From contig CP021220.1 of assembly GCA_003999685.1 (NCBI GenBank), forward strand, positions 3,100,001 to 3,164,000: DNA of 64,000 nucleotides. Reading direction: 5' to 3'. A program made the position numbers and the translations under genes. Every line of letters begins with the position of its first letter. The stretch's first letter is position 1. The notes below the pieces were generated by a model. It was given only the letters and a program-made list of their open reading frames with translations. It searched no databases and was not told the DNA's origin. Of this stretch, positions 716-26,497 are shown piece after piece. Origin of the DNA: Taiwanofungus camphoratus. Its lineage: Eukaryota > Basidiomycota > Agaricomycetes > Polyporales > Taiwanofungaceae.

Positions 716-1706
716 GCGGACACTTCAGTTCTTGTAGAAATGCATGTACTGGATTCTCCGTCGCACTGGGAGCTACAGGGCCAGCAAAAGTGCTAGACCG
801 AGGGATGTTGATGATACTGGGGTTGCTAGGCCCTAGAACTGGGGGAGGTAAGGGTGACACTTGCTTTAGTAAATGCTGAGTGTCGACTGTGGAATGGGCA
901 ACTAGATGGCTTGGACCTGCAACAGGAGAAAGATGAAGTGATGTTGAAATAGATTGCTGCTGCACCATGGTGACGCTGCTTCTAGATGTGCTAGAGCTTG
1001 ACACAGAACTAACATGGTCATGACTATTGTTATAGGCTGACTCAATACCCTCAGTTAAGGGCGCATATTGTGGAGGATATTGTTCTTGTTCAAGGTGAAT
1101 ACCTGGAGGCAATGATGCTCGAATGTCTGATCGACAAGGTTGAGTGTGAACATCTGTATGCTAGAAGATATGCTAGAAATACTCACAATTGTGATCAATT
1201 TCTTCCCCAATGGTGTCCTCATTGTCAGTCATGTAGTCATCCTGAAGCTTCAAATCTACCTCCTGCATTTCAAAGTTCTCAGGTTTAATTGCAGGACCAA
1301 CATGCTCATTGGCCCAAGGTGGAGGGTTATCTATGTTCACAATGTCCCCAAGCTTGCCAATCAAATATTTCTCATCCTCATCTAATTTGTCTCCTGCTCC
1401 ATTGTTGACAGAAAACCAAACCTCCTGGGGGCCACAATTGAGCCATTCCATGATCTGTGCGACAGTATATTCTTGCTTCCAATAATCACGTATCAAAGCG
1501 CGTTGCATACGTGTGATTTGCGGAACTTTATGTCTGAAAAATGGTGCATTGTGTCTGATGGGTATATTCAGTCATAGAGACGTGCATGGATCTAGACATA
1601 CTGAGAATGATGCATCTGAGTGGACACCGGGGACTGAGGCGCAGGATGAACAACAAGACATGAAGTTATTGTACTCGAAGCTGCACTTGGATCATTGGAT
1701 GACCAT
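716..1706 (-). other. Unrecognised block with coding-like minus-strand ORFs between repeats
   Basis: A stretch of about 990 bases lies between the 3' end of one TGAT element and the 5' end of another. Two minus-strand ORFs look protein-like. One (1508-1173) encodes a basic then acidic peptide beginning MQRALIRDYWKQEY, with an aspartate/glutamate-rich tail. The other (1112 down to about 716) is serine-, proline- and histidine-rich. I do not recognise either. The second ORF runs straight into the repeat, so the block is probably a host-gene fragment or the remains of another mobile element. It lacks a primer site next to 715 and a purine tract next to 1707, so it does not look like the interior of an LTR element. 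Confidence 0.4.
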
Positions 1707-2743
1707 TGATATGACCTAGGGGACCCTGGCACCTAGGGAGTGCTCCAAAACATGGCTAGGAGGTAGTGTGTGAACTATAGGGATATGAGGGGAGGAGCTA
1801 CAACCTGTATGATACTGGGAAGCCTGTATGTCTTGTTTTTGTAAGCGAGGGAGTAAGGGGCCAAGGGTCCTGCGTGACAGGATCTTGTTCCTAGGTGCTA
1901 GACGATCCCTAAGGCCTTATGAGGCCCTCTGAAGTGTGTGAAGTCCTTTGAAGTTCTGCGAAGTCCTTTGAAGTTCTGTGAAGTCCTTTGAAGTTTTAGC
2001 TAAAGCACACGAGCTGACTTCGTAGACTGTATGGAGTTAGGGAGCAATAAGCCAATAGAATATAGCTTCAACTAATCGGCAAATGGTACGAGACTACTGC
2101 AAAATCTTTAACTAGAGTTAGCTAAAGGGCGTAGTGTTTTGAAGCTTGTTAAAGCGAGGTGTGTGAGATTTGGCTAGCGTAGGAGACCTATAGAAGAGGT
2201 TGGATGGTTCAGGGAGTTAATACTTGGAATAGGGATGGGAGGATGAGATCGCTGGAAGTTCTGAAGTGTCTAATGACTTCAAGGTGTAGGTCGGGGAGTT
2301 CGAAGGCGTAGGGGGATATACTATGACCTAAAATGAAGGCTATAGGAGAGTCGTAGAGCTATTCGTAGGACGTAGGGATGACACAACGTGAGCCTAAGGG
2401 TATAACTAAGACGGAGGCCCACCGGATAGGTGCTATAAGATGTGCTGAAGGGTGTGAAGTCACGGCAACTTCGTGGATCGTAGTGCGTAGTTTGGGAAGC
2501 GTAGACGTAGTTCGTAGATATATCATGAGCATAGACATAGTTCAAAGATACTGAAACAGAGCTGGGGTGGAGACTTAGGGGCTTAGGACCGTTCCTAAGG
2601 TTGTACTTATGGCACTTCTCTGAGATCAGAGCTACAGGGGAACTTGTATATCAAATGGAGAAGCATGCACTGAGGGGTCTCTGTCATACATAGTAAACTA
2701 CCTCTGACTAAATAGGGGAGCATAAGGTGAACTATTCTTGCGC
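1707..2743 (+). repeat. TGAT element copy 2, 5' part
   Basis: It begins TGATATGACCTAGGGG at 1707 and follows the family consensus in forward orientation until CTTGCGC at 2743. There it is replaced abruptly by the reversed 3' end of another copy. It carries the short GAAGT-type tandem words near 1930-2000 that mark the 5' third of the element. No coding potential is seen. Confidence 0.8.
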
Positions 2744-3785
2744 TGATGAGTCCTGTGGCTGCCTGGGCCCCAAATCACGATTTTAGGAGCTCTCCTATCC
2801 CCTAACAGACCATCCTATAACCCTTCTAACACCCTATAAAGTCCTGCAAAGTCACACGAGGTGCTACAAGGTTTCTAACGCTAGCCACAAAGTCCCTAAC
2901 TCCTGCTAAGTCCACTATCGGACACTGCCAGCCCTCCCATACGGTTCTATTGGACCTAGGTCCCAGCTACTACGTCACTCATCCCGGGCTCAGCTAAGAA
3001 GTCTTAGCTAAGTCTCTCCTAGCTCTTGTGATTGCAGCCACCTCCAATAGGCTCCGAAATGGTCCGAAGTTCCAGAGGCTGGACTTAGGAAGCCTTGTGC
3101 ACCCCATGGGCCTTGATCCTATGCCATAAAGTTCTTCTATAGCGCATCCATATGATCCTCTGCCCAGTTAGGACACCTCCTACCCCGATTAGGCCAAGTC
3201 CCGCTGCTAGAAAACTTTGTATGCTCCTAGCCCACTAAGATAGTTGATCACGGCGCATGGCTGCTCTCAGATAGTCATCCCGCCCTCGTGAATGAACTTG
3301 GTCACCTTTCTACCATACGTAGTTCCCCTGTTTCAGTTCCTATTTAGTTTCTATTCTCCTCGTGTTCACTTCGGAGCCCATGCGCTGTAGTACACATTTT
3401 GGACTCGTAAGGATCACTTCACGCAAGAATAGTTTACCTCACGCTCCCCTATTTAGTCAGAGGTAGTTTACAATGTATGAGAGAGACCCCTCAGTGCACA
3501 CTTCTCCCTTTGGAATACCAGTTCCCCCTGTAGCTCTGATCTCAGGAAAGTGCTGCGAGTACAACCTTAGGAATGGTCCTAAGACCCCTAAGTCTCCACC
3601 CCAGCTCCGTTTCAATACCTTTGAACTACGTCTACGCTCGCGATATATCTACAAACCACGTCTACGCTCTCCGAACTACGCACTACGATCCACGAAGTCG
3701 CTGTGACTTCGCATCCTTCAGCACCTTTTATAGCACCTATCCGGTGGGCCTTCGCCTTAGTTATACCCTTAGGCTCACGTTGCGT
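2744..3785 (-). repeat. TGAT element copy 3, 3' part, inverted
   Basis: It starts TGATGAGTCC, the reverse complement of the family's 3' end, and runs in reverse until 3785, where copy 4 begins. With copy 2 it forms a divergent inverted pair of about 1 kb arms. Much of it matches 5820 onward (copy 5). The rest of this copy is not found on the far side of copy 4, so the arrangement is more than a simple insertion. Confidence 0.75.
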
Positions 3786-5549
3786 TGATACGACCTAGGG
3801 GACCCTGGTACCTAGGGAGTGCTCCACAACGTGCCTGGAAGATAGTGTGTGAACTGTGGGGATGTGAGGGGAGGAGCTACAAACTGTATGATACCGGGAA
3901 ATCTGTATGTCTTGTTTTTGTAAGTGGGGGAGTAAGGGGTTAAGGGTCCTGCACAACAGGATCTTGTTCCTAAGTGCTATACGATCCCTAAGGCCTTGCG
4001 AGGCCCTCCGAAGTGCGTGAAGTTCTTCGAGGTTCTACGAAGTCCTTCAAAGTTTTAGCTAAATTGCACGAGCTGACTTCATAGGCTGTATGGAGTTATG
4101 GAGCGATAAGCCAATAGACTATAGTTTCAACTAAGCAGCAGAGGGTACGAGACTGCTGCGAAGTCTTTAACTAGAATTAGCTAAAGGGCGTAAGGCTTAG
4201 AGGTTTGTTAGAACGAGGGGGGCGAGGTTTGGCTAGTGTAGGAGACCTGTAGGAGAGGTCAGATGGTTCAGAGAGCTAATACTTGGAATAGAAATTGGAG
4301 AATGAGGTTGCTGGAAGCTTCAAAGTGTCTGATGACTTCAAGGTGTAGGTCGGAGAGTTCGAGGGCGTAGGAAGATATACTATAGCCTGAAATGAAGACT
4401 ATGGGAGAGTCGTAGGGTTATTCGTAGGATGTAGGGATGACGCAACGTGAGCCTAAGGGTATAACTAAGGTGGAGGCCCACCGGATAGGTGCTATATGAG
4501 GTGCTGAAGGGTGCAAAGTCACAGCGACTTCGTGGATCGTAGTGCGTAGTTCGGAGAGCGTAGACGTGGTTTGTAGATATATCGCGAGCGTAGACGTAGT
4601 TCAAAGGTATTGAAACGGAGCTGGGGTGGAGACTTAGGGGTCTTAGGACCATTCCTAAGGTTGTACTCGCAGCACTTTCCTGAGATCAGAGCTACAGGGG
4701 GAACTGGTATTCCAAAGGGAGAAGTGTGCACTGAGGGGTCTCTCTCATACATTGTAAACTACCTCTGACTAAATAGGGGAGCGTGAGGTAAACTATTCTT
4801 GCGTGAAGTGATCCTTACGAGTCCAAAATGTGTACTACAGCGCATGGGCTCCGAAATGAACACGAGGAGGATAGGAACTAAATAGGAACTGAAACAGGGG
4901 AACTACATATGGTAGAAAGGTGACCAAGTTCATTCACGAGGGCAGGATGACTATCCGAGAGCAGCCATGTGCCATGATCAACTATCTTAGTGGGCTAAGA
5001 GCGTACAAAGTTTCTAGCAGCAGGACTTGGCCTAATCGGGGTAGGAGGTGTCCTAAATGGGTGGAGGATCATATGGATGTGCCATAGGAGAACCTTATGG
5101 CATAGGATCAAGACTCATGGGGTGCGCAAGGCTTCCTAAGTCCAGCCTCCGGAACTTCGGACCATTTCGAAGCCTATTGGAGGTGGCTGCAATCACAAGA
5201 GCTAGGAGAGACTTAGCTAAGACTTCTTAGCTAAGCCCGGGATGAGTGACGTAGTAGCTGAGACCTAGGTCCAATAGAATAGTATGGGAGGGCCGGCAGT
5301 GTCCGATAGTGGACTTAGCAGGAGTTAGGGACTTTGTGGCTAGCGTTCAAAACCTCGTAGCATCTCGCGTGACTTCGCAGGACTTCGTAGGGTGTTAGAA
5401 GGGTTTAGGAAGGAAAGAAGGTGTTAGAAACATTATAGGAACCTATCCCACCTGTCATAGGCTGTAGAAGAGTCATAGGATGGTTGGTTAGGGGATTAGA
5501 AAGCTCCTAAAATCGCAATTCGGGGCCCAGGAGGCTACAGGACTCATCA
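3786..5549 (+). repeat. TGAT element copy 4, full length
   Basis: This is a complete copy of 1764 bases from TGATACGACC to GACTCATCA. The flanking tetramers are GCGT on the left and CCGT on the right, so only an imperfect target duplication is seen. That fits insertion into copy 3 followed by rearrangement. Peptide ORFs inside are short and repeated on both strands in other copies, so they are shadows of the repeat and not genes. Confidence 0.8.
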
Positions 5550-5819
5550 CCGTACATCGTGTTTATACTACTGTACTATAATGTAAGGCGCATCGGGAGT
5601 GGCGTAGTACGAGTGGCATCCTAACTACTTGTGTATGATGAACTATGGAGTGGCCTGTAGAGGGAGTGGCTACTGTACTTGACGTCACTAGAAAGGCTGA
5701 AACAAAGGAACATACATAAAATATACTAAGACAAAACCTGTGGCCATAGCATTATTGAGTGCATCGAGTGGCATGTCGTAGCAGATCGAGCGATATCAGA
5801 GTGGTGAGACCGGTCACGT
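5550..5819. other. Short spacer between two inverted TGAT copies
   Basis: This 270-base AT-rich segment is unlike the repeat. No gene is seen. It ends in ACGT, the left half of the target duplication of copy 5. Confidence 0.5.
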
Positions 5820-7573
5820 TGATGAGTCCCGTAGCCTCCTGGGCCCCGAATCGCGATTTTAGGAGCTTTCTAATCCCCCAACCGACCACTCTAAGACTCT
5901 TCTACAGCCTACGGCAGGAGGGATAGGTTCCTATAATATTCCTAACGCCCCCTTTCCTTCCTAAACCCTCCTAACACCCTACGAAGTCTTGCGAAGTCAC
6001 ACGAGGTGCTACGAGGTTTCGAATGCTAGACGCGAAGTCCCTAACTCCTGCTAAGTCCACTATTGGACACTGCCGGCCCTCCCATACTGTTCCATTGGAT
6101 CTAGATCCTATCTACTACGTCACTCATCCCGGGCTTAGCTAAGAAGTCTTAGCTAAGTCTCTCCTAGCTCTTGTGATTGCAGCTACCTCCGATAGGCTCC
6201 GAAACAGTCTGAAGTTCCGGAAGTTGGACTTAGGAAGCCTTGCGCACCCCATGGGTCTCGATCCTATGCCATAAGGTCATCCTAGGGTGTATCCATATGG
6301 CCCTCCACCCAGTTAGGACACCTCCTACCCTGATTAGGCCAAGTCCCACTGCTAAGAACTTCGTGCGCTCTTAGCCCACTAAGATAGGTGATCACGGTGC
6401 ATGGCTGCTCTCAGATAGTCATCCTGCCCTCGTGAATGAACTTGGTCACCTTTCTACCGTACGTAGTTCCCCTGTTTCAGTTCCTATTTAGTTCCTATCC
6501 TCCTTGTGTTCACTTCGGAGTCTATGCGCTTTAGTACACATTTCGGACTCGTAAGGATCACTTCACGCAAGAATAGTTCACCTCACGCTCCCCTATTTAG
6601 TCAGAGGTAGTTTACTATGTACAGGAGAGACCCCTCAGTGCACGCTTCTCTCTTTGGAATACAAGTTCCCCTGTAGCTCCGATCTCAGGAAAGCGTCGCG
6701 AGTACAACCTTAGGAATGGTCCTAAGGCCCCTAAGTCTCCACCCCAGCTCCGTTTCAGTACCTTTGAACTACATCTACGCTCACGATATATCTACGAACC
6801 ACGTCTACGCTCCCGAACTACGCACTACGATCCATGAAGTCACTGTGACTTCGCACCTTTCAGCACCTCATATAGCACCTATCCGGTGGGCCTCCGCCTT
6901 AGTTATACCCTTAGGCTCACGTTGCGTCATTCCTACGTCCTACGAATAACCCTACGACTCCCCCATAGCCTTCATTTCAGGCTATAGCACCTCCCCCTAC
7001 GCCCTCGAACTCTCCGACCTACACCTCGAAGTCATCAGACACTTCAGAACTTCCAGCAACCTCGTTCTCCCATTCCCATTCCAAGTATTAGCTCTCCGAA
7101 CCATCCGACCTCTCCTACAAGTCTCCTACGCTAGCCAAACCTCGCTCTAACAAACCTCTAAGCCTTACGCCCTTTAGCTAACTCTAGCTAAAAGGACTTT
7201 GCAGCAGTCTCGTACCCTCTGCCGCTTAGTAGAAACTATAGTCCATTGGCTTATTGCTCCCTAACTCCATACAGCCTACGAAGTCAGCTCACGCGATTTA
7301 GCTAAAACTTCGAAGGACTTCGCAGAATCTCGAAGAACTTCGCGTACTTCGGAGGGCCTCGCAAGGCCTTAGGGATCGTATAGCACTTGGGAACAAGATC
7401 CTGTTGTGCAGGACCCTTGACCCCTTACTCCCCCACTTACAAAAACAAGACATACAGGTTTCCCGGTATCATACAGGTTGTAGCTCCTACCCTCACATCC
7501 TCACAGTTATCACACTTTCCACAGCCACGTTGCGGAGCACTCCCTAGGTACCAGGGTCCCCTAGGTCGTATCA
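5820..7573 (-). repeat. TGAT element copy 5, full length, with ACGT target duplication
   Basis: This is a complete reversed copy of 1754 bases, from TGATGAGTCC at 5820 to GTCGTATCA at 7573. It is flanked by ACGT at 5816-5819 and 7574-7577, a clean 4-base target duplication. The two ends share an imperfect 10-base terminal inverted repeat (TGATACGACC against TGATGAGTCC, 7 of 10 matching). Together with copy 6 it defines the element's boundaries. Confidence 0.85.
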
Positions 7574-8391: not shown

Positions 8392-8892
8392 TGTTACTGT
8401 CGGGTAGGACTAGAGACGTGTTCGTTTTTTCTTTCCCTCTGTTTGTCACACCATGGACGCGCGGCATCCCTTCCACACCTTACTTACCCAGATTGACTGA
8501 CGGGCCGACCGTCCCCGCTTACGCCATGGTAGTTATGTACTTTCGGGCCGCTGACTCCTCTCACTTTATGCGGTCTCTGGGGGGCTGCTAGTATACCTGG
8601 GGGTTGGCGGTGGCAGTATAAAGGGGGGTCCCACTGTTGGAGGTTCCCCTAGTCGTATTCTCTTCGTTCATCCTTTCCTAAAGTGTACTACGCATTAGTA
8701 CCAATACACGCTAGTCTTCACACATCTCCTTGCACCTCAAGAAGCCCGTAAAAGACTATTGCGACTACATAGGGCTTGTAGTTGAAGACTACCGAGGATT
8801 GTGACTTGTTGTCACCGTCGCTCCTCTTCGACCCTTCGCTGCACACCGCTCCAAGCTTCTGCAGCATTATCAGGGTGAACCCCCCGGTAACA
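8392..8892 (+). repeat. 5' LTR of outer Gypsy element
   Basis: This 501-base LTR has ends TGTTAC and GTAACA. It contains a TATA box (TATAAA near 8617) and the probable transcript start about 34 bases on. The same LTR sequence appears at 25997-26497 and, reversed, at 17738-18239 and 24975-25476. Confidence 0.93.
8617..8661 (+). promoter_or_regulatory. LTR core promoter: TATA box and inferred transcript start
   Basis: TATAAA begins at 8617. The 11-mer AGTCGTATTCT starts at 8651, 34 bases downstream, about where transcription would begin. The same 11-mer is complementary to the primer site just after the LTR, which is independent support for the RNA starting here. The start site is inferred, not shown. 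Confidence 0.65.
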
Positions 8893-9583: not shown

Positions 9584-10041
9584 AACTGGAGGGTCTGCTC
9601 AACGCAACCGTGCCCTCACCGCTACGACTCTGCACTCTACAGGGGAAGTGATTTTGAACCTTGTACTCCAACCAATCGTGCCCTCATCCAGGCCCGCTGG
9701 ACAACCTTTGACGAAACCGACCCACCCTCCGACGAAGGCTCCAGCTCAGAACTGACCGATCCTGACATTGAACGGACAGAACGACAAATGGAGACTGAAG
9801 GGACAGGAAAAACATCCCCTTCCACCCCGGAAACACCCCGTGGCTTGAGCTCTTTCCGATCAGGAATAGGGGAATCAGGGCCACCGCCTGACGATGGGCT
9901 GGGGGAAGAAGGCCCCCTTGAGGGAGGACCACCTTATGATGAGAGTGGAGGACCCCCAGGAGGACCACCTGGTGGAGGAGGACCACCTGGCGGAGGAGGA
10001 CCACCTGGCGGAGGAGGAACACCTGGCGGAGGAGTGCCCGG

Positions 10042-12641
10042 TGATACGACCTAGGGGACCCTGGTACCTAGGGAGTGCTCCGCAACGTGGCTGGGGGTAG
10101 TGTGATAACTGTGAGGGTGTGAGGGTAGGAGCTACAACCTGTATGATACCGGGAAACCTGTATGTCTTGTTTTTGTAAGTAGGGGAGTAAGGGGTCAAGG
10201 GTCCTGCACAACAGGATCTTGTTCCTAAGTGCTATACTATCCCTAAGGCCTTGCGAGGCCCTCCGAAGTATGCGAAGTTCTTCGAGGTTTTGCGAAGCCC
10301 TTCGAAGTTTTAGCTAAATCGCGCGAGCTGACTTCGTAGATGCTGCGAAGTCCTTCTGGTTAGAGTTAGCTAAAGGGCGTAAGGTTTTTGGAGTTTGTTA
10401 GAGCGAAGTGGGCGAGGTTTGGCTAGCGTAGGAGACCTGTAGGAGAGGTCGGAGAGTTCGAGGGCGTAGAGAGATGTACTATAGCCTGTAACTAAGGCTA
10501 TGGGAGGGTCGTAGGGCTATTCGTAGGACGTAGGGATAACGCAACGTGAGCCTAAGGGTATAACTAAGGCGGAGGCCCACCGGATAGGTGCTATAAAAGG
10601 TGCTGAAGGGTGCGAAGTCACGGCGACTTTCGTAGATGGTAGTGCGTAGTTCGGGAAGCGTAGACGTAGTTCGTAGCTATATCGCGAGCGTAGACGTAGT
10701 TCAAAGGTACTGAAACGAAGCTGGGGTGGAGACTTAGGGGCCTTAGGACCATTCCTAAGGTTGTACTCGCGGCGCTTTCCTGAGATCGGAGCTACAGGGG
10801 AACTGGTATTCCAAAGAGAGAAGCGTGCACTGAGGGGTCTCTCCTGTACATAGTAAACTACCTCTGACTAAATAGGGGAACGTGAGGTGAACTAATCTTG
10901 CGCGAAGCGATCCTTACGAGTCCGAAATGTGTACTAAAACGCATGGCCTCCGAAGTGAACACGAGGGGGATAGGAACTAATTAGGAACTGAAACAGGGGA
11001 ACTACGTACGGTAGAAAGGTGACCAAGTTCATTCACGAGGGCGGGATGACTATCCGAGAGCAGCCATGCGCCGTGATCACCTATCTTAGTGGGCTAAGAG
11101 CGCACGAAGTCCTTAGCAGCGGGACTTGGCCTAATCGGGGCAGGAGGTGTCCTAAATGGGTGGAGGGTCATATGGGTACGTCCTAGGATGACCTTATGGC
11201 ATAGGATCGAGACCCATGGGGGTGCACAAGGCTTCCTAAGTCCAACTTCCGGAACTTCGGACCGTTTCGGAGCCTATCGGAGGTAGCTGCAATCACAAGA
11301 GCTAGGAGAGACTTAGCTAAGACTTCTTAGCTAAGCCCGGGATGAGTGACGTAGTAGATAGGACCTAGATCCAATGGAACAGTATGGGAGGGCCGGCAGT
11401 GTCCGATAGTGGACTTAGCAGGAGTTAGGGACTTCGCGTCTAGCATTCGAAACCTCGTAGCACCTCGTGTGACTTCGCAAGACTTCGTAGGGTGTTAGGA
11501 GGGTTTAGGAAGGAGAGGGGGCGTTAGGAATATTATAGGAACCTATCCCTCCTGTCGTAGGCTGTAGGAGAGTCTTAGAGTGGTCGGTTGGGGGATTAGA
11601 AAGCTCCTAAAATCGCGATTCGGGGGCCAGGAGGCTACGGGACTCATCAGCGTAGACGTAGTTCGTAGCTATATCGCGAGCGTAGACGTAGTTCAAAGGT
11701 ACTGAAACGAAGCTGGGGTGGAGACTTAGGGACCTTAGGACCGTTCCTAAGGTTGTACTCGCGGCGCTTTCCTGAGATCGGAGCTACAGGGGAACTGGTA
11801 TTCCAAAGAGAGAAGCGTGCACTGAGGGGTCTCCCTCTTACATAGTAAACTACCTCTGACTAAATAGGGGAGCGTGAGGTGAACTAATCTTGCGCGAAGT
11901 GATCCTTACGAGTCCGAAATGTGTACTAAAACGCATGGACTCCGAAGTGAACACGAGGAGGATAGGAACTAATTAGGAACTGAAACAGGGGAACTACGAA
12001 CGGTAGAAAGGTGACCAACTTCATTCACGAGGGTGGAATGACTATCCGAGAGCAGCCATGCGCCGTGATCACCTATCTTAGCGGGCTAAAAGCGCACGAA
12101 GTTCTTAGCAGCGGGACTTGGCCTAATCAGGGCAGGAGGTGTCCTAACTGGGTGGAGGGTCATGTGGGTACGCCCTAGGATGACCTTATGGCATAGGATC
12201 GAGACCCATGGGGGTGCACAAGGCTTCCTAAGTCCAGCTTCCGGAACTTCGGACCGTTTCGGAGCCTATCGGAGGTAACTGCAATCACAAGAGCTAGGAG
12301 AGACTTAGCTAAGACTTCTTAGCTAAGCCCGGGATGAGTGACGTAGTAGATAGGACCTAGATCCAATGGAACAGTATGGGAGGGCCGGCAGTGTCCGATA
12401 GTGGACTTAGCAGGAGTTAGGGACTTCGCGTCTAGCATTCGAAATCTCGTAGCACCTCGTGTGACTTCGCAAGACTTCGTAGGGTGTTAGGAGGGTTTAG
12501 GAAGGAGAGGGGGCGTTAGGAATATTATAGGGACCTATCCCTCCTGTCGTAGGCTGTAGGAGAGTCTTAGAGTGGTCGGTTGGGGGATTAGAAAGCTCCT
12601 AAAATCGCGATTCGGGGCCCAGGAGGCTACGGGACTCATCA
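10042..12641 (+). repeat. TGAT element copy 6, inserted in gag, with internal duplication
   Basis: It begins TGATACGACC at 10042 and ends ACTCATCA at 12641, flanked by CCGG at 10038-10041 and 12642-12645. The inner Gypsy copy supplies the unoccupied target for comparison, which fixes both boundaries. A basic unit of about 1.61 kb (10042-11649) is followed by a second copy of its last 992 bases. No protein is encoded. The family's 4-base target duplication (here CCGG, ACGT at copy 5) is palindromic in both clean cases. Confidence 0.88.
10658..12641 (+). repeat. 992-base tandem duplication inside TGAT copy 6
   Basis: Positions 10658-11649 and 11650-12641 are two head-to-tail units of equal length that are nearly identical. 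Both start GCGTAGACGTAGTTC and end GACTCATCA. The second unit therefore gives the element two consecutive 3' ends. Confidence 0.85.
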
Positions 12642-16600: not shown

Positions 16601-17737
16601 TCAACCAGGAACTGGAGGCGGCCTGGAGAATTCTATGCGCAAATGACCCCCACACCTGGGTCAAACACATCCCCGAGTTTGAATTCGCACACAACCAGGT
16701 GCCGCATGCTGGAAGGAAGGAATCGCCATTCAAGCTCACCATGGGGTACGACCCGAAGGCCATCGGATCTCCACGACCCTCCGACAAATACCCCACGCTC
16801 CAAGACCGCCTGACCCAGATCTCCGAATCCCGCAAAGAGGCTCTTGCAGCGCAAGAGCTAGCCCAGAGGCTGATGGAAGAACGAACCCCTTTTCCCTGGA
16901 AACCTTTCCAGGAAGGTGACAAGGTTTGGCTAGAAGCCACGAACCTCCGGCTAAGGACAATAAGTCGGAAATTTGACCCAAAACAGCTTGGACCCTTCAA
17001 GATCATGGAAGCCAAGGGGCCACTGACGTACAAGCTACAGCTCCCGAGAACCTGGAAGATTCACCCGGTGTTCCATGCATCGCTGCTCACCCCATACAGG
17101 GAAACGGTGGAACATGGACCCAACTTTCTGAAACCACCACCTGATCTGGTCGAGGGGGAAGAAGAGTACGAAGTCGAGGCCCTCCGCAGGCATCGTGCCC
17201 GACGTGGGAAATGGGAGTTTCTCATCAAATGGAAGGGATGGCCGGTCTCTGCCAGCACCTGGCAGAAGGAAGACGATCTACGGCATTCCCCTGACCTGCT
17301 GAGGCGTTATAAGAAGGCAAACCACCTGGGCATCAACCCAGTTGACAACCGTTCAACTGCACTGCAAGGAGCCATTCCGCAGCATTTCAAGGCCGCCTCC
17401 CACCATGTCCCATCGAACCAACGCCGCCCGAGCCCGCCTTGCCGCCTCCATCCTCACCGCAGGGAACGCCCGCACACTGAATCCCTTTCTTCGGGGACCG
17501 CAGAACCTCCCCAACTTCGCCGAAGGGATTGTTGTCCCCCTACCTCGCCAAGCAACATCTGGCCTCGCCGCCGACTTTCTGACCCCCGCCGACCGTCTCG
17601 GATGGGTGCTGGCCAACGAACGACTACGCCCGGCGGTGGACACCGCCCTAGTTGTCTGGCCCGATCTTGCGGCCCAGGTTGCCATCTTTCGACATCAGGC
17701 CGAGGTTGTCTTACACCTCGATCAGGTAATAAGGGGG
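13651..17737 (+). pseudogene. Pol region of outer Gypsy element
   Basis: This is a fossil Pol-coding region whose end is displaced by the inner element. The order is aspartic protease (active-site LLDSGAD), reverse transcriptase (YMDD box), RNase H (EADAS), integrase with an HHCC zinc segment (GCAKCQESK) and a DDE core, then a chromodomain (KWEFLIKWKGWPVSASTW). The order protease, RT, RNase H, integrase is that of Gypsy/Ty3, and the chromodomain is that of chromoviruses, which use it to steer integration to marked chromatin. Confidence 0.92.
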
Positions 17738-18239
17738 TGTTACCGGGGGGTTCACCCTGATAATGCTGCAGAAGCTTGGAGCGGTGTGCAGCGAAGGGTC
17801 GAAGAGGAACGACGGTGACGACGAGTCACAATCCTCAGTAGTCTTCAACTACAAGCCCTATGTAGTCGTGATAGTCTTTCACGGGCTTCTTGCGGTACAA
17901 GGAGATGTGAGAAAGACTAGCGTGTATTGGTACTAATGCGTAGTACACTTTAGGAAGGATGAACGAAGAGAATACGACTAAGGGAACCTCCGACAGTGGG
18001 ACCCCCTTCTTATACTGCCACCGCCAACCCCCAGGTATACTAGCAGCCCCCCAGAGACCGCATAAGGTGAGAGGAGTCAGCGGCCCGAAAGTACATAACT
18101 ACCACGGCGTAAGCGGGGACGGTCGGCCCGTCAGTCAATCTGGGTAAGTAAGGTGTGGAAGGGATGCCGCGCGTCCATGGTGTGACAAACAGAGGGAAAG
18201 AAAAAACGAACACGTCTCTAGTCCTACCCGACAGTAACA
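17738..18239 (-). repeat. 3' LTR of inner Gypsy copy
   Basis: This 502-base LTR, read on the minus strand, starts TGTTAC and ends GTAACA. It appears identical to 24975-25476. Confidence 0.93.
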
Positions 18240-18256
18240 CTACCCCCGTCTCCTCT

Positions 18257-18276
18257 CAGGTGTCGCCCCGACACCT
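18257..18276 (-). other. Short perfect hairpin before the 3' LTR
   Basis: AGGTGTCG and CGACACCT form an 8-base stem with a three-base loop between the third ORF's stop and the purine-rich tract next to the 3' LTR. The same hairpin is at 25960-25978 in the outer copy. It could be an RNA signal or protect the purine tract; the role is unknown. Confidence 0.55.
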
Positions 18277-18280
18277 ACCC

Positions 18281-19087
18281 TCATGACCTGGTAGCTTCCT
18301 CGTCAGGCTGCTTCGACCCACTGATTTCCGACCAGGCGGCCCCTGCCTTGGGGCATTGGTCGGTGTCGTGATCGTCAGCGAAACAATCCAGACAGCGAGG
18401 CGGGACGAAGGGCTCAACAGCCGGCTCCCCCAGTCGTGGCCGGTGGATGCAATCAGCAGCAACGTGATCGAGGCCCATGCAAAATTCACAGGCCCCAGCC
18501 CATCGGTCCAGGGGGCGGCACTCGGGGTGGAGACAAACTGTCCATTCGTCCTGCGTGGAGGGGGCTGGGCGCGTGATGACGGAGGAGGGTGGTAGGAGAT
18601 GCTCGAGGGCGGAGACGACGTCAGTGCGAAGGAGGAAATTGAGATGGGAGCGCGTAGCGTTACAGGCCTGCCAGTACGATATACCAATTTCCCGGATGGG
18701 GCTGGCCCACCATTTGGCTTCGTCATGCTCTCCCTTCTCCCTCTCCCCTCTGTACCCCCTTATTACCTGATCGAGGTGCAAGACGACCTCGGCCTGATGT
18801 CGAAAAATGGCAACCTGGGCCGCAAGATCGGGCCAGACAACGAGGGCGGTGTCCACCGCCGGGCGTAGTCGTTCGTTGGCCAGCACCCATCCGAGGCGGT
18901 CGGCGGGGGTCAGAAAGTCGGCGGCGAGGCCAGATGTTGCTTGGCGAGGTAGGGGGACGACAATCCCCTCGGCGAAGTTGGGGAGGTTTTGCGGTCCCCG
19001 AAGAAAGGGATTCAGTGTGCGGGCATTCCCTGCGGTGAGGATGGAGGCGGCAAGGCGGGCTCGGGCGGCGTTGGTTCGATGGGACAT
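18281..19087 (-). CDS. Third ORF of the inner Gypsy copy, with two CCHC zinc knuckles
   Basis: This 268-residue ORF starts MSHRTNAARARLAAS within the end of pol, overlapping it by about 365 bases in another frame, and runs nearly to the 3' LTR. Its N-terminal half is alanine/arginine/leucine-rich. Its C-terminal part has two segments with exact CX2CX4HX4C spacing: CEFCMGLDHVAADC and CLDCFADDHDTDQC. That is the zinc-knuckle spacing of Gag nucleocapsid, here in an acidic context, in a protein separate from Gag. A third ORF after pol is not standard in chromoviruses. The outer copy has the same ORF, with both knuckles, in two pieces. Function is unknown. Confidence 0.8.
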   Translation of the reverse strand: MSHRTNAARARLAASILTAGNARTLNPFLRGPQNLPNFAEGIVVPLPRQATSGLAADFLTPADRLGWVLANERLRPAVDTALVVWPDLAAQVAIFRHQAEVVLHLDQVIRGYRGEREKGEHDEAKWWASPIREIGISYWQACNATRSHLNFLLRTDVVSALEHLLPPSSVITRPAPSTQDEWTVCLHPECRPLDRWAGACEFCMGLDHVAADCIHRPRLGEPAVEPFVPPRCLDCFADDHDTDQCPKAGAAWSEISGSKQPDEEATRS

Positions 19088-22000
19088 GGTGGGAGGTGGC
19101 TTTGAAGTGCTGCGGAATGACTCCTTGCCGGGCAGTTGAACGGTTGTCGACTGGGTTGATGCCTAGGTGGTTTGCCTTCTTATAACGCCTCAGCAGGTCA
19201 GGGGAATGCCGTAGATCATCTTCCTTCTGCCAGGTGCTGGCAGAGACCGGCCATCCCTTCCATTTGATGAGAAACTCCCATTTCCCACGTCGGGCGCGAT
19301 GCCCGCGGAGGGCCTCGACTTCGTACTCTTCTTCCCCCTCGACCAGATCAGGTGGTGGTTTCAGAAAGTTGGGTCCGTGTTCCACCGTTTCCCTGTATGG
19401 GGTGAGCAGCGATGCATGGAACACCGGGTGAATCTTCCAGGTTCTCGGGAGCTGTAGCTTGTACGTCAGTGGCCCCTTGACTTCCGTGATCTTGAAGGGT
19501 CCAAGCCGCTTTGGGTCAAATTTCCTACTTATTGTCCTCAGCCGGAGGTTCGTGGCTTCTAGCCAAACCTTGTCGCCTTCCTGGAAAGGTTTCCAGGGAA
19601 AAGGGGTTCGTTCCTCCATCAGCTTCTGGGCTAGCTCTTGCGCTGCAAGAGCCTCTTTGCGGGATTCGGAGATCCGGGTCAGGCGGTCTTGGAGCGTGGG
19701 GTATTTGTCGGAGGGTCGTGGAGATCCGATGGCCTTCGGGTCGTACCCCATGGTGAGCTTGAATGGCGATTCCTTCCTTCCAGCATGCGGCACCTGGTTG
19801 TGTGCGAATTCGAACTCGGGGATGTGTTTGACCCAGGTGTGGGGGTCATTTGCGCATAGGATTCTCCAGGCCGCCTCCAGTTCCTGGTTGACCCGTTCTG
19901 TACTCCCATCTGATTGGGGGTGGTAGGCAGTGGACATTGCCGCCTTGACTCCTGTCAGCTTACACCATTCTCGAAATGCAGCCGCTGCGAACTGTGGTCC
20001 TCGGTCGGATATCATCCGGTCAGGTAGGCCATATCGCCTGTATACATTGAGGTGTAGGGCCTCTGCCGTCCCTACCGCGTCTATGTTCTTGGTGCAGGGT
20101 ATGAGCACGATGCCCTTGGTGAGTTCTCTGTCAACCACTACCATGAGTGCATTGAAGCCCTGTGACTCTGGTAGGTCAGTGATGAAGTCTACTGATATGT
20201 GCGAGAATGGCCTTGAGTTCGGCTCTGTGGGGATGGCCATCAGGGGGGGTTTCGTTGGGTGTGTGTTGATCTTGCTTTCCTGGCATTTGGCGCACCCCTC
20301 AACATATTTCTCGATGAATGAAGACATTCCATGCCAGAACCAGTCCCTTCGGGCGATGGCCATTGTACCTTGTGCCCCTGGGTGTGCCATTGCTGGTGTG
20401 TCGTGACAGAGTTGAATGACTTCTCGGCGCAAATCATCATCAGGGGGTACGTAAACTCTGTTTTTGTATAAAATTAGTCCCTCCTGAATGTCCCAGTCTG
20501 CCAGCTTTGTGTGCGCAAAGCCTGTGCCCTTGAATGGCGGTACCTTCCCCCGTTTTAAAGCGTCAATCGTCTCGATGACCATCCTGTCACGGGTACGACA
20601 TTCACGTATCTTTTCGATGATTGCAGTGTTGGTGGCGTTGACAAAGAGGTCTGTCGGTAACAGGATGACATCTTCGTTGTCATGTTTCCCTCCTGGGTGG
20701 TCAGGTCGCCGGGAGAGTGCATCGGCGACTATGAGTCGACTGCCTTTTTTGTTTAATAGTTGCAGGTCAAATTGTGACAGGAATAACTGCCATCGGGCCT
20801 GGCGTCGGTTGAGTCGTTGTGCTTCTCGGAAATAGGTGAGGTTCTTGTGGTCGGTGATCACCGTGACCGGGTGTCCACTTCCTTCAAGGTGGTGGCGCCA
20901 TTCCTCGAGTGCTCGGACGATGGCCAGCAGCTCTCTGTCATATACTTGATAATTCCGCTCCGCTTCTTTCAGGCTCTTCGAGAGGAAAGCTATAGGGTGT
21001 AGCCGCCCTTCTTCATCAAGTTGTTGAAGCACTGCACCAGTGGCTACCAGAGAGGCGTCGGCCTCAATGGTGAATGGTTTGGACGGGTCGGGCATGCGAA
21101 GGATAGGCATGCTCTGGAAACACCGTTTGAGCTCGTCGAAGGCCTCCTGGCAGGCTTTGGTCCAGTTCCACTCCGCGCGTTTCTTCTTGATGACATTCAA
21201 GGGGTGAGCGATGTGGGAGAAGTTGTGGATGAAGCGTCGGTAGTAGTTGGCGAGACCCATGAATCGTTCCACATCCTTGACCCTAGTAGGAATGGGCCAA
21301 CCTGCGATTCCTGCCAGTTTGTCCTTGTCCATGTGCACCTGTCCAGGTGAGATGGTCATTCCCAAGAAGTCAACTTCGACGACATCGAACGCGCATTTTT
21401 CTGGCTTGACAAATAGATCCCATTTCTGCAGCCGTTGTAGGACGCGTCTGGTTCGTTCTCGGTGGGCTTCCATATTGTCGGAGAAAATGAGGATGTCGTC
21501 CATATAGATCGCGATCCACCCCTCGGCCAGCATGTCCTGGAACGCGTCATTCATCATTCGCTGAAACGTGGCCGGCGAGTTGCACATCCCAAAGAACATG
21601 ACAGTGGGTTCGACGATCTTGTCCTGATTCCTATATTTGACCATGAATGCTCCTTTCCATTGATCGCCCTCTCTGATCCGGACGTTGTTGTACCCGTTTC
21701 GGAGGTCTAATTTAGTGAACACAGTGGCCCTTTGGAGCCTGTCGATTAGCTCTCCTATGAGGGGCAAGGGGTAGGCATCTTTGATCGTGCCCTTGTTCAG
21801 GTATCGGTAGTCCTGGCACGGGCGCAAGGTACCATCCTTTTTTTTGACAAAAAAGGCTGGTGACGCCATTGGTGAGTTCGATTCTCGGAGATAGCCCTTG
21901 GCCAGGTTTTCTTCCAAAAATTTGTCCATTGCTGCCTGTTCGTTTGGAGACAAAGGAATTACGGCGCATTTTCTGGGGACAAAGTCTGGCCTTAATTCGA

Positions 22001-22841
22001 TGGCATGGTCCCAGGGCTTGGATTCTGGGAACCGGTTGGCAGCCTCCTTTTCGAACAACCGTTTATAGTCCCACAGGTATTCTGGGACAAGGTCTTCTAC
22101 GGATGGGGGTGGGTCCTTGGGGATCACCAATTCCGTGAGCTCTGGGACATCCCATACCATATGTGGGGAGTCAGGGAGTCGTGTTAGTCGATTGAGCCCT
22201 AGTTGTGTGGGCTTTAGGGCCTGCAGTAGCCCGTCTTCACGTACGAGCGGCTGCCCTTTCTGTTGGAAGATCCCCAGAACCCCTTCTCCTTGTGTGTAAG
22301 CACACATTATGTCCGAAAACTCCTCATTGTCTTCATGAATGGAAGCTCGACACAGGGGAATTCCGTCTGTCGTGGGTTGGCTCATGATCCAGGCATAGTA
22401 TCCTTGCCATTCTGTGAGTCGAGCTTGGTCAATCTCGAGCGTTCCTTCTACCCAGTCGATGCGTGGGTTGACTTGTGCGAGCCAAGGGTTGCCGAGTACT
22501 ACATCGAGCGTTCCAATGTTTGAGACATAAAAGTTGGTTGGGATGTCATTCCCTTCTAATCGTATGCTCCCTTCGACTCTGTGGGTAATCGGTCCCCCTT
22601 TGTTTGTAGAGCCGTCAATGGTGGTTGAGGTTACTGTCCTGGGAAGCGGTCGAGTGGGGAGTCCCCACTTCCTTACAAAGTCGGGGTGAATTAGGTTGGC
22701 GTCAGCCCCACTATCCAATAGGGGGCATGCAGCGACGGCTTTCTCTCCTACGACGATATAACCCGGTAGATAAAGTGTATTGCGCTTGCGCGTTCCGGTA
22801 ATTATATTTCGTACAGAGAGTTTAGGCGACTCGTGCGTCAC
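18723..22841 (-). CDS. Pol of inner Gypsy copy
   Basis: An open 1372-residue Pol with protease, reverse transcriptase (YMDD), RNase H, integrase with zinc segment, and a C-terminal chromodomain. After the chromodomain comes a proline/arginine-rich tail that overlaps the third ORF. It starts 11 bases after the gag stop in a different frame, an arrangement other Ty3/Gypsy elements handle by recoding or reinitiation. Confidence 0.93.
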   Translation of the reverse strand: MTHESPKLSVRNIITGTRKRNTLYLPGYIVVGEKAVAACPLLDSGADANLIHPDFVRKWGLPTRPLPRTVTSTTIDGSTNKGGPITHRVEGSIRLEGNDIPTNFYVSNIGTLDVVLGNPWLAQVNPRIDWVEGTLEIDQARLTEWQGYYAWIMSQPTTDGIPLCRASIHEDNEEFSDIMCAYTQGEGVLGIFQQKGQPLVREDGLLQALKPTQLGLNRLTRLPDSPHMVWDVPELTELVIPKDPPPSVEDLVPEYLWDYKRLFEKEAANRFPESKPWDHAIELRPDFVPRKCAVIPLSPNEQAAMDKFLEENLAKGYLRESNSPMASPAFFVKKKDGTLRPCQDYRYLNKGTIKDAYPLPLIGELIDRLQRATVFTKLDLRNGYNNVRIREGDQWKGAFMVKYRNQDKIVEPTVMFFGMCNSPATFQRMMNDAFQDMLAEGWIAIYMDDILIFSDNMEAHRERTRRVLQRLQKWDLFVKPEKCAFDVVEVDFLGMTISPGQVHMDKDKLAGIAGWPIPTRVKDVERFMGLANYYRRFIHNFSHIAHPLNVIKKKRAEWNWTKACQEAFDELKRCFQSMPILRMPDPSKPFTIEADASLVATGAVLQQLDEEGRLHPIAFLSKSLKEAERNYQVYDRELLAIVRALEEWRHHLEGSGHPVTVITDHKNLTYFREAQRLNRRQARWQLFLSQFDLQLLNKKGSRLIVADALSRRPDHPGGKHDNEDVILLPTDLFVNATNTAIIEKIRECRTRDRMVIETIDALKRGKVPPFKGTGFAHTKLADWDIQEGLILYKNRVYVPPDDDLRREVIQLCHDTPAMAHPGAQGTMAIARRDWFWHGMSSFIEKYVEGCAKCQESKINTHPTKPPLMAIPTEPNSRPFSHISVDFITDLPESQGFNALMVVVDRELTKGIVLIPCTKNIDAVGTAEALHLNVYRRYGLPDRMISDRGPQFAAAAFREWCKLTGVKAAMSTAYHPQSDGSTERVNQELEAAWRILCANDPHTWVKHIPEFEFAHNQVPHAGRKESPFKLTMGYDPKAIGSPRPSDKYPTLQDRLTRISESRKEALAAQELAQKLMEERTPFPWKPFQEGDKVWLEATNLRLRTISRKFDPKRLGPFKITEVKGPLTYKLQLPRTWKIHPVFHASLLTPYRETVEHGPNFLKPPPDLVEGEEEYEVEALRGHRARRGKWEFLIKWKGWPVSASTWQKEDDLRHSPDLLRRYKKANHLGINPVDNRSTARQGVIPQHFKATSHHVPSNQRRPSPPCRLHPHRRECPHTESLSSGTAKPPQLRRGDCRPPTSPSNIWPRRRLSDPRRPPRMGAGQRTTTPGGGHRPRCLARSCGPGCHFSTSGRGRLAPRSGNKGVQRGEGEGRA

Positions 22842-22852
22842 GTCGGGTCGCC

Positions 22853-24430
22853 TTACAGAAAATCCACAAAGTCGTGGTGCTGAGAGAAGTGGGGGAATCT
22901 TACTCCTTTCGTTTCTTGCCCCTGCTCCTCCTGTTCAGAGGCTTCATCATCCGCCTCGTTTTCATCTTTCATGCTGGCCCTTCGGTTTGGGGGTCCTGTT
23001 CCCCGACCCGAGGTTCGCTCCGGGCAGTCTTTGGCCAGGTGCCCCTTATTGTGGCATTTGTAGCAGGAGCCCGTCCTTCGGTCTTGCAAGCGCTGATGGT
23101 CTGGTTTCCCACTGTCAAATGCCCTTGCTGCGACTCGTGGAGGGGTTTTCGAAGTTCTTTGAGCGGCATCAATGGCCTTGTTGTTTCGATAGGCCCGGTC
23201 CCGTTGGGCAGCAGCTTCCTTCCATCCTTCTAGGGTTGTGGGGGCTACATCTCGTTCCATGATTCGGACTCGCATGGTGCTGGGTAGTTTTTCTCGGTAC
23301 CAGGCCATAAGGGCACTTTCTTCGGTGATTTCTGCCCTGCGGGCCAGTCGGTCGAACTCCTCGTTGAAATCGGCAATGGGTTTGTCGTAGGTGTAGACCA
23401 AGTTCCGTAGTTCGATGGCTGCAGAGACCTCCTCCTCTATTACCCCGAACCTTTTGATGAACTCGAGAGCGACATTCCTGAAAGTGCCGTACCCCCGGCT
23501 CACCCCTCGGATGAGGGGGTGGGGTTCGAGTGCCTTTTCGGTGAGAGTATCGGCCCAGGCACCAGCATGGCCTTCGAGGTGGCCAAGGAAATTGCCGACC
23601 TTTTCTCGTTCGGAAGCAGAGGCCCATCGCTCGGTGTCAAATCTTCGGGCAAATTGGATGAGGAAGTGTCGGGCATCCTCTCGCTTTCCAGAGAACTTAG
23701 TAATTTCTGGCTCTTTTCGGTCCGGTACCCGTGCAGCTCCCTGTGGGAGGGGCGTTCCTCCAGGCGGCTGCCCCCCTCCAGGGGGTCCTCCCCCAGGGGG
23801 TCCTCCTCCCCCAGGTGGTTCTCCTCTACCGGGTAGTCCTCCTCCACTGGGCACTCCTCCGCCAGGTGTTCCTCCTCCGCCAGGTGTTCCTCCTCCGCCA
23901 GGTGGTCCTCCTCCACCAGGTGGTCCTCCTCCACCAGGTGGTCCTCCCTCGGGGGGGCCTTCCTCCCCTAGCCCATCGTCAGGCGGTGGCCCTGATTCCC
24001 CTATTCCAGATCGGAAAGAGCTCAAGCCACGGGGTGTTTCCGGAGTGGAAGGGGATGTTTTTCCTGTCCCTTCAGTCTCCATTTGTCGTTCTGTCCGTTC
24101 AATGTCAGGATCGGTTAGTTCTGAGCTGGAGCCCTCGTCGGAGGGTGGGTCGGTTTCGTCAAAGGTTGTCCAGCGGGCCTGGATGAGGGCACGATTGGTT
24201 GGAGTACAAGGTTCGAAATCGCTTCCCCTGTAGAGTGCAGAGTCGTAGCGGTGAGGGCACGGTTGCGTTGAGCAGACCCTCCAGTTAGAAGTCTTCGTGT
24301 AATGTCGGTGTACGTCCCGATTGTTCTCCGCTTGATAGCGATGAGCTTTCCCGGCGCACGTCAGGGTCGACCTCCGCCTCGTTTTGGAGGATGGATCCAG
24401 CTTGCCACCGGCGATAGAAATCTCGGGCAC
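22853..24430 (-). CDS. Gag of inner Gypsy copy
   Basis: An open 525-residue Gag. The N-terminal third is acidic and serine/proline-rich. A glycine/proline tract follows (GGGGPP units, 23780-23950), then the retrotransposon Gag core with the segment RRFDTERWASASEREK, and a single CCHC knuckle (CYKCHNKGHLAKDC) near the C terminus. The true start may lie further upstream or downstream; the leader region is coding-like in another frame. Confidence 0.88.
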   Translation of the reverse strand: MPEISIAGGKLDPSSKTRRRSTLTCAGKAHRYQAENNRDVHRHYTKTSNWRVCSTQPCPHRYDSALYRGSDFEPCTPTNRALIQARWTTFDETDPPSDEGSSSELTDPDIERTERQMETEGTGKTSPSTPETPRGLSSFRSGIGESGPPPDDGLGEEGPPEGGPPGGGGPPGGGGPPGGGGTPGGGGTPGGGVPSGGGLPGRGEPPGGGGPPGGGPPGGGQPPGGTPLPQGAARVPDRKEPEITKFSGKREDARHFLIQFARRFDTERWASASEREKVGNFLGHLEGHAGAWADTLTEKALEPHPLIRGVSRGYGTFRNVALEFIKRFGVIEEEVSAAIELRNLVYTYDKPIADFNEEFDRLARRAEITEESALMAWYREKLPSTMRVRIMERDVAPTTLEGWKEAAAQRDRAYRNNKAIDAAQRTSKTPPRVAARAFDSGKPDHQRLQDRRTGSCYKCHNKGHLAKDCPERTSGRGTGPPNRRASMKDENEADDEASEQEEQGQETKGVRFPHFSQHHDFVDFL

Positions 24431-24974
24431 TCAGTAGCCTTTGATAGAGGTTCACAATTATGGGAACGGCCAATTGAAATGAGAAGCGTGGGTTTGAGAG
24501 CACCTTCTGAGCAGTGAGGATACGGTGGTCGAGGACTTCGTCAAAATCTTCAGAGGGAGTGGGAGGTAGCGGTCGGCTCCCTTCCCTTGCCAGCCTGTCG
24601 TGATTTTCTAATACGGCTTGCCAAGCGTCGCTGGCTCTGGAGATGCGGGAGCGGGTGTAAAGGATCAGCTCCCTCTGTTCAGCTGGGAGGAAGCTGGTGG
24701 AACTATCGGCGTGTAGAATGGCTCTGAGGTTGCGCTCAGCTCGATCCAGGACTTCTTCTAAAGTCGGGAGAGTAGGGTCAAATGCTGCGTGATCCAGCTC
24801 TTCTTCTTGTTCGTAGTCGATATCAAAAGGTCGTTGATAATCCGTGGTAATCAGTACTAATCGTATGAGTGCGCTGACCTCGCCTTCTTCGAGACCGGTA
24901 CAGGTCTTTTAGGCACTGTCTTCTTGTGACCTCTCGAACCAGGACGGGTTCGGATTTATGGAGTCGTATTCTAG

Positions 24975-25476
24975 TGTTACCGGGGGGTTCACCCTGATAA
25001 TGCTGCAGAAGCTTGGAGCGGTGTGCAGCGAAGGGTCGAAGAGGAACGACGGTGACGACGAGTCACAATCCTCAGTAGTCTTCAACTACAAGCCCTATGT
25101 AGTCGTGATAGTCTTTCACGGGCTTCTTGCGGTACAAGGAGATGTGAGAAAGACTAGCGTGTATTGGTACTAATGCGTAGTACACTTTAGGAAGGATGAA
25201 CGAAGAGAATACGACTAAGGGAACCTCCGACAGTGGGACCCCCTTCTTATACTGCCACCGCCAACCCCCAGGTATACTAGCAGCCCCCCAGAGACCGCAT
25301 AAGGTGAGAGGAGTCAGCGGCCCGAAAGTACATAACTACCACGGCGTAAGCGGGGACGGTCGGCCCGTCAGTCAATCTGGGTAAGTAAGGTGTGGAAGGG
25401 ATGCCGCGCGTCCATGGTGTGACAAACAGAGGGAAAGAAAAAACGAACACGTCTCTAGTCCTACCCGACAGTAACA
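24975..25476 (-). repeat. 5' LTR of inner Gypsy copy
   Basis: This 502-base LTR is reversed and appears identical to 17738-18239. The self-primer pair is 25206-25216 in the LTR and 24962-24972 next to it. Confidence 0.93.
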
Positions 25477-25955
25477 GGGGGTACAGAGGGGAGAGGGAGA
25501 AGGGAGAGCATGACGAAGCTAAGTGGTGGGCCAGCCCCATCCGGGAAATTGGTATATCGTACTGGCAGGCCTGTAATGCAACGCGCTCCCACCTAAATTT
25601 CCTCCTTCGCACCGACGTCGTCTCCGCCCTCGAGCATCTCCTACCACCCTCCTCCGTCATCACACGCCCGGCCCCCTCCACGCAGGACGAGTGGACGGTT
25701 TGTCTCCACCCGGAGTGCCGCCCTCTGAACCGATGGGCTGGGGCCTGTGAATTCTGCATGGGCCTCGATCATGTTACTGCCGACTGCATCCACCGGCCAC
25801 AACTGGGGGAGCCGGCTGCTGAGCCCTTCGTCCCGCCTCGCTGTCTGGATTGTTTCGCTGACGATCACGACACCGACCAATGCCCCAAGGCAGGGGCCGC
25901 CTGGTCGGAAATCAGTGGGTCGAAGCAGCCTGACGAGGAAGCTACCAGGTCATGA
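25477..25955 (+). pseudogene. Rest of the third ORF of the outer Gypsy element
   Basis: This is the far part of the outer copy's third ORF, separated from its first part (from 17405) by the inner element. It carries both CCHC knuckles seen in the inner copy, with a few residue differences. It is followed by a short hairpin and a purine-rich tract leading into the 3' LTR. Confidence 0.85.
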
Positions 25956-25996: not shown

Positions 25997-26497
25997 TGTT
26001 ACTGTCGGGTAGGACTAGAGACGTGTTCGTTTTTTCTTTCCCTCTGTTTGTCACACCATGGACGCGCGGCATCCCTTCCACACCTTACTTACCCAGATTG
26101 ACTGACGGGCCGACCGTCCCCGCTTACGTCATGGTAGTTATGTACTTTCGGGCCGCTGACTCCTCTCACTTTATGCGGTCTCTGGGGGGCTGCTAGTATA
26201 CCTGGGGGTTGGCGGTGGCAGTATAAAGGGGGGTCCCACTGTTGGAGGTTCCCCTAGTCGTATTCTCTTCGTTCATCCTTTCCTAAAGTGTACTACGCAT
26301 TAGTACCAATACACGCTAGTCTTCACACATCTCCTTGCACCTCAAGAAGCCCGTAAAAGACTATCGCGACTACATAGGGCTTGTAGTTGAAGACTACCGA
26401 GGATTGTGACTTGTTGTCACCGTCGCTCCTCTTCGACCCTTCACTGCACACCGCTCCAAGCTTCTGCAGCATTATCAGGGTGAACCCCCCGGTAACA
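25997..26497 (+). repeat. 3' LTR of outer Gypsy element
   Basis: This 501-base LTR has ends TGTTAC and GTAACA and is followed by the CACAC target duplication at 26498-26502. By eye it differs from the 5' LTR at about three sites. Confidence 0.93.

Follow-up and report, generated by a model that had tools for sequence, protein, structure and literature searches.

Within a 64,000-nucleotide stretch of the Taiwanofungus camphoratus genome (assembly GCA_003999685.1, contig CP021220.1, positions 3,100,001 to 3,164,000; hereafter "the window," by which all coordinates are given), a Gypsy-type long terminal repeat (LTR) retrotransposon of the chromovirus group carries, behind its pol gene, a third open reading frame (ORF) that encodes two zinc knuckles. 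This frame, here called ORF3, is a genuine third gene and not a chance frame. The element is the inner of two nested members of one family, family A, and is made up as follows:

18281..19087, minus strand: ORF3, 268 codons with its own ATG
18449..18490, minus strand: zinc knuckle 1, ORF3 residues 200-213, CEFCMGLDHVAADC, pattern CX2CX4HX4C
18353..18394, minus strand: zinc knuckle 2, ORF3 residues 232-245, CLDCFADDHDTDQC, pattern CX2CX4HX4C
18723..22841, minus strand: pol ORF, with RVT_1, RNase H, H2C2, rve and Chromo (Pfam)
19176..19325, minus strand: chromodomain in the C-terminal part of pol (Pfam PF00385, E 6.2e-12)
22853..24430, minus strand: gag open frame with a single CCHC knuckle of its own (zf-CCHC at 21.8 bits, cut-off 20.8)
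24975..25476, minus strand: 5' LTR, 502 bp
17738..18239, minus strand: 3' LTR, 502 bp, identical to the 5' LTR

With reverse transcriptase, RNase H, integrase and a C-terminal chromodomain all present in pol, the inner element is a chromovirus by its domains, and it is bounded by two identical LTRs and flanked on both sides by the target site duplication CCCCC. ORF3 begins about 89 nucleotides (nt) 3' of the chromodomain, overlaps about the last 120 codons of pol in a different frame and ends about 40 nt short of the 3' LTR; from stop to stop it measures 293 codons. A model's reading of the window without database searches (the sequence-only reading) had given the ORF these coordinates and 268 residues, correctly, and its strand, left unstated there, is minus. 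Also borne out were its descriptions of an extra ORF running from the C-terminal region of pol, in another frame, to near the 3' LTR, of two segments with exact CX2CX4HX4C spacing, and of a Gag protein with a single knuckle of its own. Across nine aligned copies of the A, A2 and B types the C, C, H and C of knuckle 1 are invariant, while knuckle 2 is retained in A2 and missing in B.

All families were counted in the window's own host genome alone (33.2 Mb, 15 contigs), whose five hydrophobin matches above the cut-off mark it as fungal and which holds 124 matches to ORF3. By hand count, fifty-one rows cover all 268 residues at 79-100% identity, 29 of them without a stop. Among the intact members of the family, to which the sequence-only reading had pointed as a check, ORF3 is open at all 18 integrase places with a 1403-codon pol frame (again by hand count); the outer copy in the window has a 1400-codon pol frame and a split ORF3. 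An ORF3 match lies within 400 nt on the same strand at 56 of the 61 integrase places assigned to family A and at 41 of the 51 assigned to the related family B, the assignment being by ORF3 type where a match is present and otherwise by integrase identity; these counts are lower bounds, from the best 113 of 345 candidate places. Sixteen of the scored places had no ORF3 match, and four of these were inspected: L050 and L051 retain a B-type ORF3 up to about residue 60, L049 belongs to a further family, C, and L052 has no match of its own across the roughly 0.7 kb preceding an oppositely oriented copy (the A-type ORF3 nearby is that of the neighboring element, on the other strand, and was scored as a match in the position join). 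Stops in old A and B copies are mostly TGA, and arginine is seen by eye to have changed to histidine, cysteine or tryptophan, as expected from C-to-T decay at methylated sites.

The ratio of nonsynonymous to synonymous substitution rates (dN/dS, method NG86) was calculated for A-type ORF3 at L003 (the window type), L028, L009, L010 and L012, out of 48 loci; L013 (a stop, no ATG), L011 (near L010), the decayed L022-L027 and other young copies were left out, and the first 20 stretches fetched were chosen for divergence. The ORF3 of L003 is 59-67% identical to those of L009, L010 and L012 in one comparison and 60-69% in another, and against these three dN/dS is 0.17, 0.18 and 0.21 downstream of the pol overlap and 0.14, 0.15 and 0.17 within it, while L009 against L010 and L012 gives 0.15 and 0.11 downstream and 0.17 and 0.20 in the overlap. 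Outside the overlap the five diverged pairs thus span 0.11-0.21, well below 1, as the sequence-only reading had expected of a real gene; these values call for caution, several pairs being saturated (dS >1), the pairs sharing copies and so not being independent, and old copies showing C-to-T decay. The closer pair, L028 and L003, gives 0.17 downstream. When the same substitutions were relocated at random within the same trinucleotide context (300 rounds per test), the mean dN/dS of the five diverged pairs was 0.46-0.70, and in each of the 10 tests none of the 300 relocations fell as low as the observed value. Read in either of the remaining two frames, these stretches give a dN/dS of 0.77-2.75, and integrase gives 0.05-0.17 in five A-type pairs. 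The pol frame, whose end position varies among copies, has a dN/dS of 1.59-2.33 in the overlap; the pol tail behind the chromodomain is therefore unconstrained, which rules it out as the constrained frame. ORF3 is beyond chance on the strength of the dN/dS and codon-position tests together with its recurrence behind 56 of 61 A integrase places.

The sequence-only reading had seen the extra ORF in one Gypsy family, which holds for family A, and we found it more widely, in four families (A, B, C and D). Family B, whose integrase is mostly 74-79% identical to that of A and whose gag and pol form one frame of up to 1667 codons, has an ORF3 of 251 residues that is about 25% identical to that of A and clearly homologous to it over residues 18-179 (hhalign probability 96.9). 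At the B loci L014-L021, dN/dS between the two subfamilies is 0.12-0.24 in 4 pairs (dS 1.4-2.2) and between near copies 0.18-0.33 in 3 pairs; codons at stops were excluded, 2-3 per pair for L014 and L018-L021. Family C, found via one listed integrase place at 51% identity, has an ORF3 of 84 residues (MSQSN...) directly behind the pol stop, with one CX2CX4HX4C knuckle followed by one of the form CX2CX6HX4C. A genome search with it returned 130 matches, sorted manually into 78 of family C, 45 of family D and 7 weak ones; the D protein, of 469 residues (432 in L059), combines this pair of knuckles with an acidic C-terminus. The C and D proteins are homologous over the knuckles (hhalign 97.3), and the A/B and C/D proteins share weak similarity at the knuckle level only. 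Both C and D ORF3s are under constraint as well, with dN/dS of 0.00-0.20 in C (14 of 15 pairs, one being undefined, with few changes each; all six fetched loci) and 0.09-0.18 in D (10 pairs; all five fetched loci). A chance ORF is ruled out by dN/dS in A-type, B, C and D pairs alike. Among 150 chromodomain places scored out of 271 candidates, a sample favoring C, D and B whose counts are lower bounds, 142 are followed on the same strand, at no more than 1300 nt, by a match to one of the four ORF3 types (67 to C, 41 to D, 30 to B and 4 to A), and eight have none. Behind the 3' region of the family C element at L049 there is an apparent endonuclease frame of a non-LTR element, noted by eye alone with no search made.

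The start of ORF3 is kept along with its frame: its ATG is retained in all nine aligned copies of the A, A2 and B types, where the first two residues read MS throughout, other B copies begin MP, and decayed copies such as L013 have no ATG. By eye, the ORF3 ATG of family D is the first ATG after the pol stop in five of five copies; five of six family C copies have an ATG that overlaps the pol stop (ATGA), and in three of those five (L054, L055 and L058) this ATG is in frame with ORF3. Because the relative frame of pol and ORF3 varies between C copies, frameshifting or readthrough is argued against and a separate start is argued for. Judged from these arrangements, translation most likely begins at ORF3's own AUG, which could be reached by reinitiation, on a spliced RNA or from an internal promoter. 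The branch-site pattern CTRAY occurs in 4 of the 20 sequences, each up to 130 nt long, taken from upstream of ORF3, at a shared place only in the close copies L003 and L028.

The remaining features of the nested pair are these:

17405..17737, plus strand: outer element ORF3, 5' part, interrupted by the inner insertion
25477..25955, plus strand: outer element ORF3, 3' part with both knuckles
8392..8892, plus strand: 5' LTR of the outer element, ends located by motif
25997..26497, plus strand: 3' LTR of the outer element, ends located by motif
24285..24908, minus strand: ORF0 of the inner element, an open frame without ATG upstream of gag

The inner element (17738-25476) sits within the ORF3 of the outer, in the opposite orientation, and this insertion is what split the outer ORF3; the sequence-only reading was right that both knuckles are present in the outer copy, and the ORF that carries them is broken in two. 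The insertion left inverted arms of 5.1 kb at 97%. Outer gag is itself broken at 9935-12641 by about 2.7 kb of repeats, which recur at 64-6814, several of them inverted. ORF0 of family A has 207 codons, overlaps the gag frame and has 80 genome matches, those at places fitting a diverged subfamily being about 75% identical; it may be an N-terminal exon of Gag, reached via splicing or a frameshift.

The CX2CX4HX4C spacing of nucleocapsid knuckles is shared by the A, A2 and B knuckles and by the first knuckle of C and D; two D copies exceed the Pfam zf-CCHC cut-off of 20.8 bits (32.9 and 24.0), the B copy L015 falls below it (17.7), and the knuckle part of an A/B profile weakly matches the nucleocapsid structures 1cl4 (E 0.0096, both knuckles) and NCp10 (0.018). 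A sequence search of the PDB gave nothing up to E 1 for the D protein and otherwise weak knuckle matches only, and scans of IMG/VR confirmed no relative. Unlike a nucleocapsid, ORF3 is encoded after pol and apart from Gag, has a different N-terminal part and, in C and D, has a second knuckle of CX2CX6HX4C form. Derivation as a relocated nucleocapsid is rejected, since Gag still has its own knuckle in A, B, C and D (one copy per family), and so is a second copy of Gag, since no similarity between ORF3 and Gag was found beyond the knuckle in 16 profile comparisons (all at most 8.6% probability).

ORF3 probably has a real job in the life cycle of the element, and its knuckles probably bind nucleic acid. 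We infer its expression, its use of its own AUG, its folding, its binding of RNA and the step it serves, and we give about an even chance to the reading that it is an accessory protein that acts by binding RNA of the element and serves the handling of genomic RNA, by export or by delivery to particles. On this reading, translation from its own AUG would yield a small soluble protein whose N-terminal part is variable and perhaps helical, is all but missing or wholly missing in family C, and is followed by one or two knuckles; the knuckles, additional to that of Gag, would bind element RNA, the remainder of the protein would bridge the bound RNA to a partner or to itself, and the step served would be post-transcriptional, nuclear export of the genomic RNA or its delivery to Gag particles, as with CERV in the Cer1 element of Caenorhabditis elegans. 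Several observations weigh against it. The B protein has one knuckle, CIRCRQMGHWSHDC, and no second; Pfam zf-CCHC gave no hit for A and A2 (P0001, L009) or for two C copies; and the C protein, at 84 residues, leaves too little room for the multimer domain of a CERV-like protein. A single-sequence AlphaFold2 prediction of ORF3 reached a mean pLDDT (predicted local distance difference test) of 41.8, an unusable model, so that "helical" is a weak guess for the N-terminal part. Export is a role that ORF3 may have by analogy with CERV alone, and no fungal branch site is conserved across families in those 20 upstream sequences, which leaves a cerv-like spliced mRNA unsupported. The closer pair L003 and L028 has a dN/dS of 0.38 within the overlap (interval 0.15-0.99, 19 changes), and the relocation control covered A-type pairs only.

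A rather unlikely alternative is that ORF3 is an auxiliary nucleocapsid, a second protein of this kind that would enter the virus-like particle together with the RNA and help in dimerization, primer annealing or strand transfer. The tandem knuckle pair does resemble the two-knuckle nucleocapsid 1cl4, and the C protein is hardly more than two knuckles; against this, Gag already supplies a knuckle in the four families (one copy per family) and in the 16 profile comparisons resembles ORF3 nowhere past it. We are more doubtful that ORF3 counters silencing, whether through binding of small interfering RNA or of the element's DNA, or through a block on methylation or RNA interference. Its faster divergence would fit an arms race: dN from A to A2 is 0.20-0.26 against 0.06-0.15 for integrase in the same three pairs, and identity between A and B is about 25% against 79% for integrase. 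Old copies, moreover, hold many stops, mostly TGA. However, dN/dS of ORF3 is far below 1, and Pfam shows no known suppressor domain in it. Gag-type knuckles are also not known to be typical of silencing suppressors.

That ORF3 is an envelope-like gene, as has been suggested for many plant post-pol ORFs, is highly improbable: instead of a transmembrane segment it has zinc knuckles, and hydropathy, the sole measure used and on one protein per group, gave no convincing membrane segment, the highest 19-residue means being 1.42 for A, 1.76 (borderline) for A2, 1.37 for B, 0.12 for C and 0.84 for D. Scarcely credible, too, is the reading of ORF3 as a frame left open by accident in a G+C-rich tail, or as an extension of pol by frameshift, for which the overlap of ORF3 with the open pol frame in A and B could be cited; it is the ORF3 frame that is constrained, not that of pol, the start codon is retained in the nine aligned copies, the end of the pol frame varies by copy, and in C the relative frames vary.

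Additional ORFs in this position have precedents, each considered here as far as the cited text sections describe them. Plant aORF-3S elements are sense ORFs between pol and the 3' LTR in most copies, and in position, strand and recurrence ORF3 is such an ORF, with the difference that the plant ORFs are env-like, some with transmembrane domains (PMC7264820). Boty, the sole fungal case named in that account alongside the plant additional ORFs, is antisense (PMC7264820). Muszewska et al. (2011; PMC3248453) describe gag and pol as the usual two ORFs, to which further domains are often joined. For fungal Gypsy elements, a figure in Novikova et al. (2010; PMC2864245) includes an "add. ORF" of unknown function. 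Like ORF3 it is a further ORF in fungal chromoviruses, a comparison made by description only; the text mentions CCHC motifs for Gag and, unlike the present analysis of ORF3, gives no sequence, knuckle or selection test for the additional ORF. In view of that figure, the sequence-only reading put it too strongly, as far as fungi are concerned, in allowing standard chromoviruses no genes but gag and pol (PMC2864245).

A further precedent is CERV of Cer1, whose C-terminal half is the post-pol ORF and which is required for export of the genomic RNA (PMC10309623). Like ORF3, this ORF lies between pol and the 3' LTR, has a potential cysteine finger, does not resemble Env and is highly divergent; CERV itself has 517 residues, and the spliced mRNA that encodes it begins with exons read in the gag frame (PMC10309623). 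ORF3, likened to it by description and not by sequence, differs in having its own ATG and no conserved upstream branch site. The ORF3s of bdelloid rotifer elements are likewise family-specific extra post-pol genes with non-envelope functions, but they are of esterase, exonuclease, env, coiled-coil or transmembrane types, and in one such element, Juno, an extra zinc knuckle lies inside pol, behind the dUTPase (PMC5408684).

Post-pol ORFs are thus already known, and what is new is a constrained version with zinc knuckles; our searches of open-licence literature yielded no description of a zinc-knuckle post-pol ORF in fungal chromoviruses, which is not proof of absence. We propose, tentatively and as a possibility short of even likelihood, that a third gene, fast-evolving yet constrained, is common to the fungal chromoviruses as a group and encodes a dedicated nucleic-acid-binding regulator. 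It would be present in two diverged lineages at least (A/B and C/D) and would be a counterpart of the accessory genes that complex retroviruses have.

LTR retrotransposition is generally held to need no more than Gag and Pol. If a constrained third gene with nucleic-acid-binding motifs is kept by nearly all chromoviruses in a fungal genome, it probably serves a step of their life cycle that has gone unstudied, and these simple retrotransposons would have regulation like that of the complex retroviruses. The ORF3 protein is small and amenable to ordinary biochemistry, making the role of post-pol ORFs directly testable.
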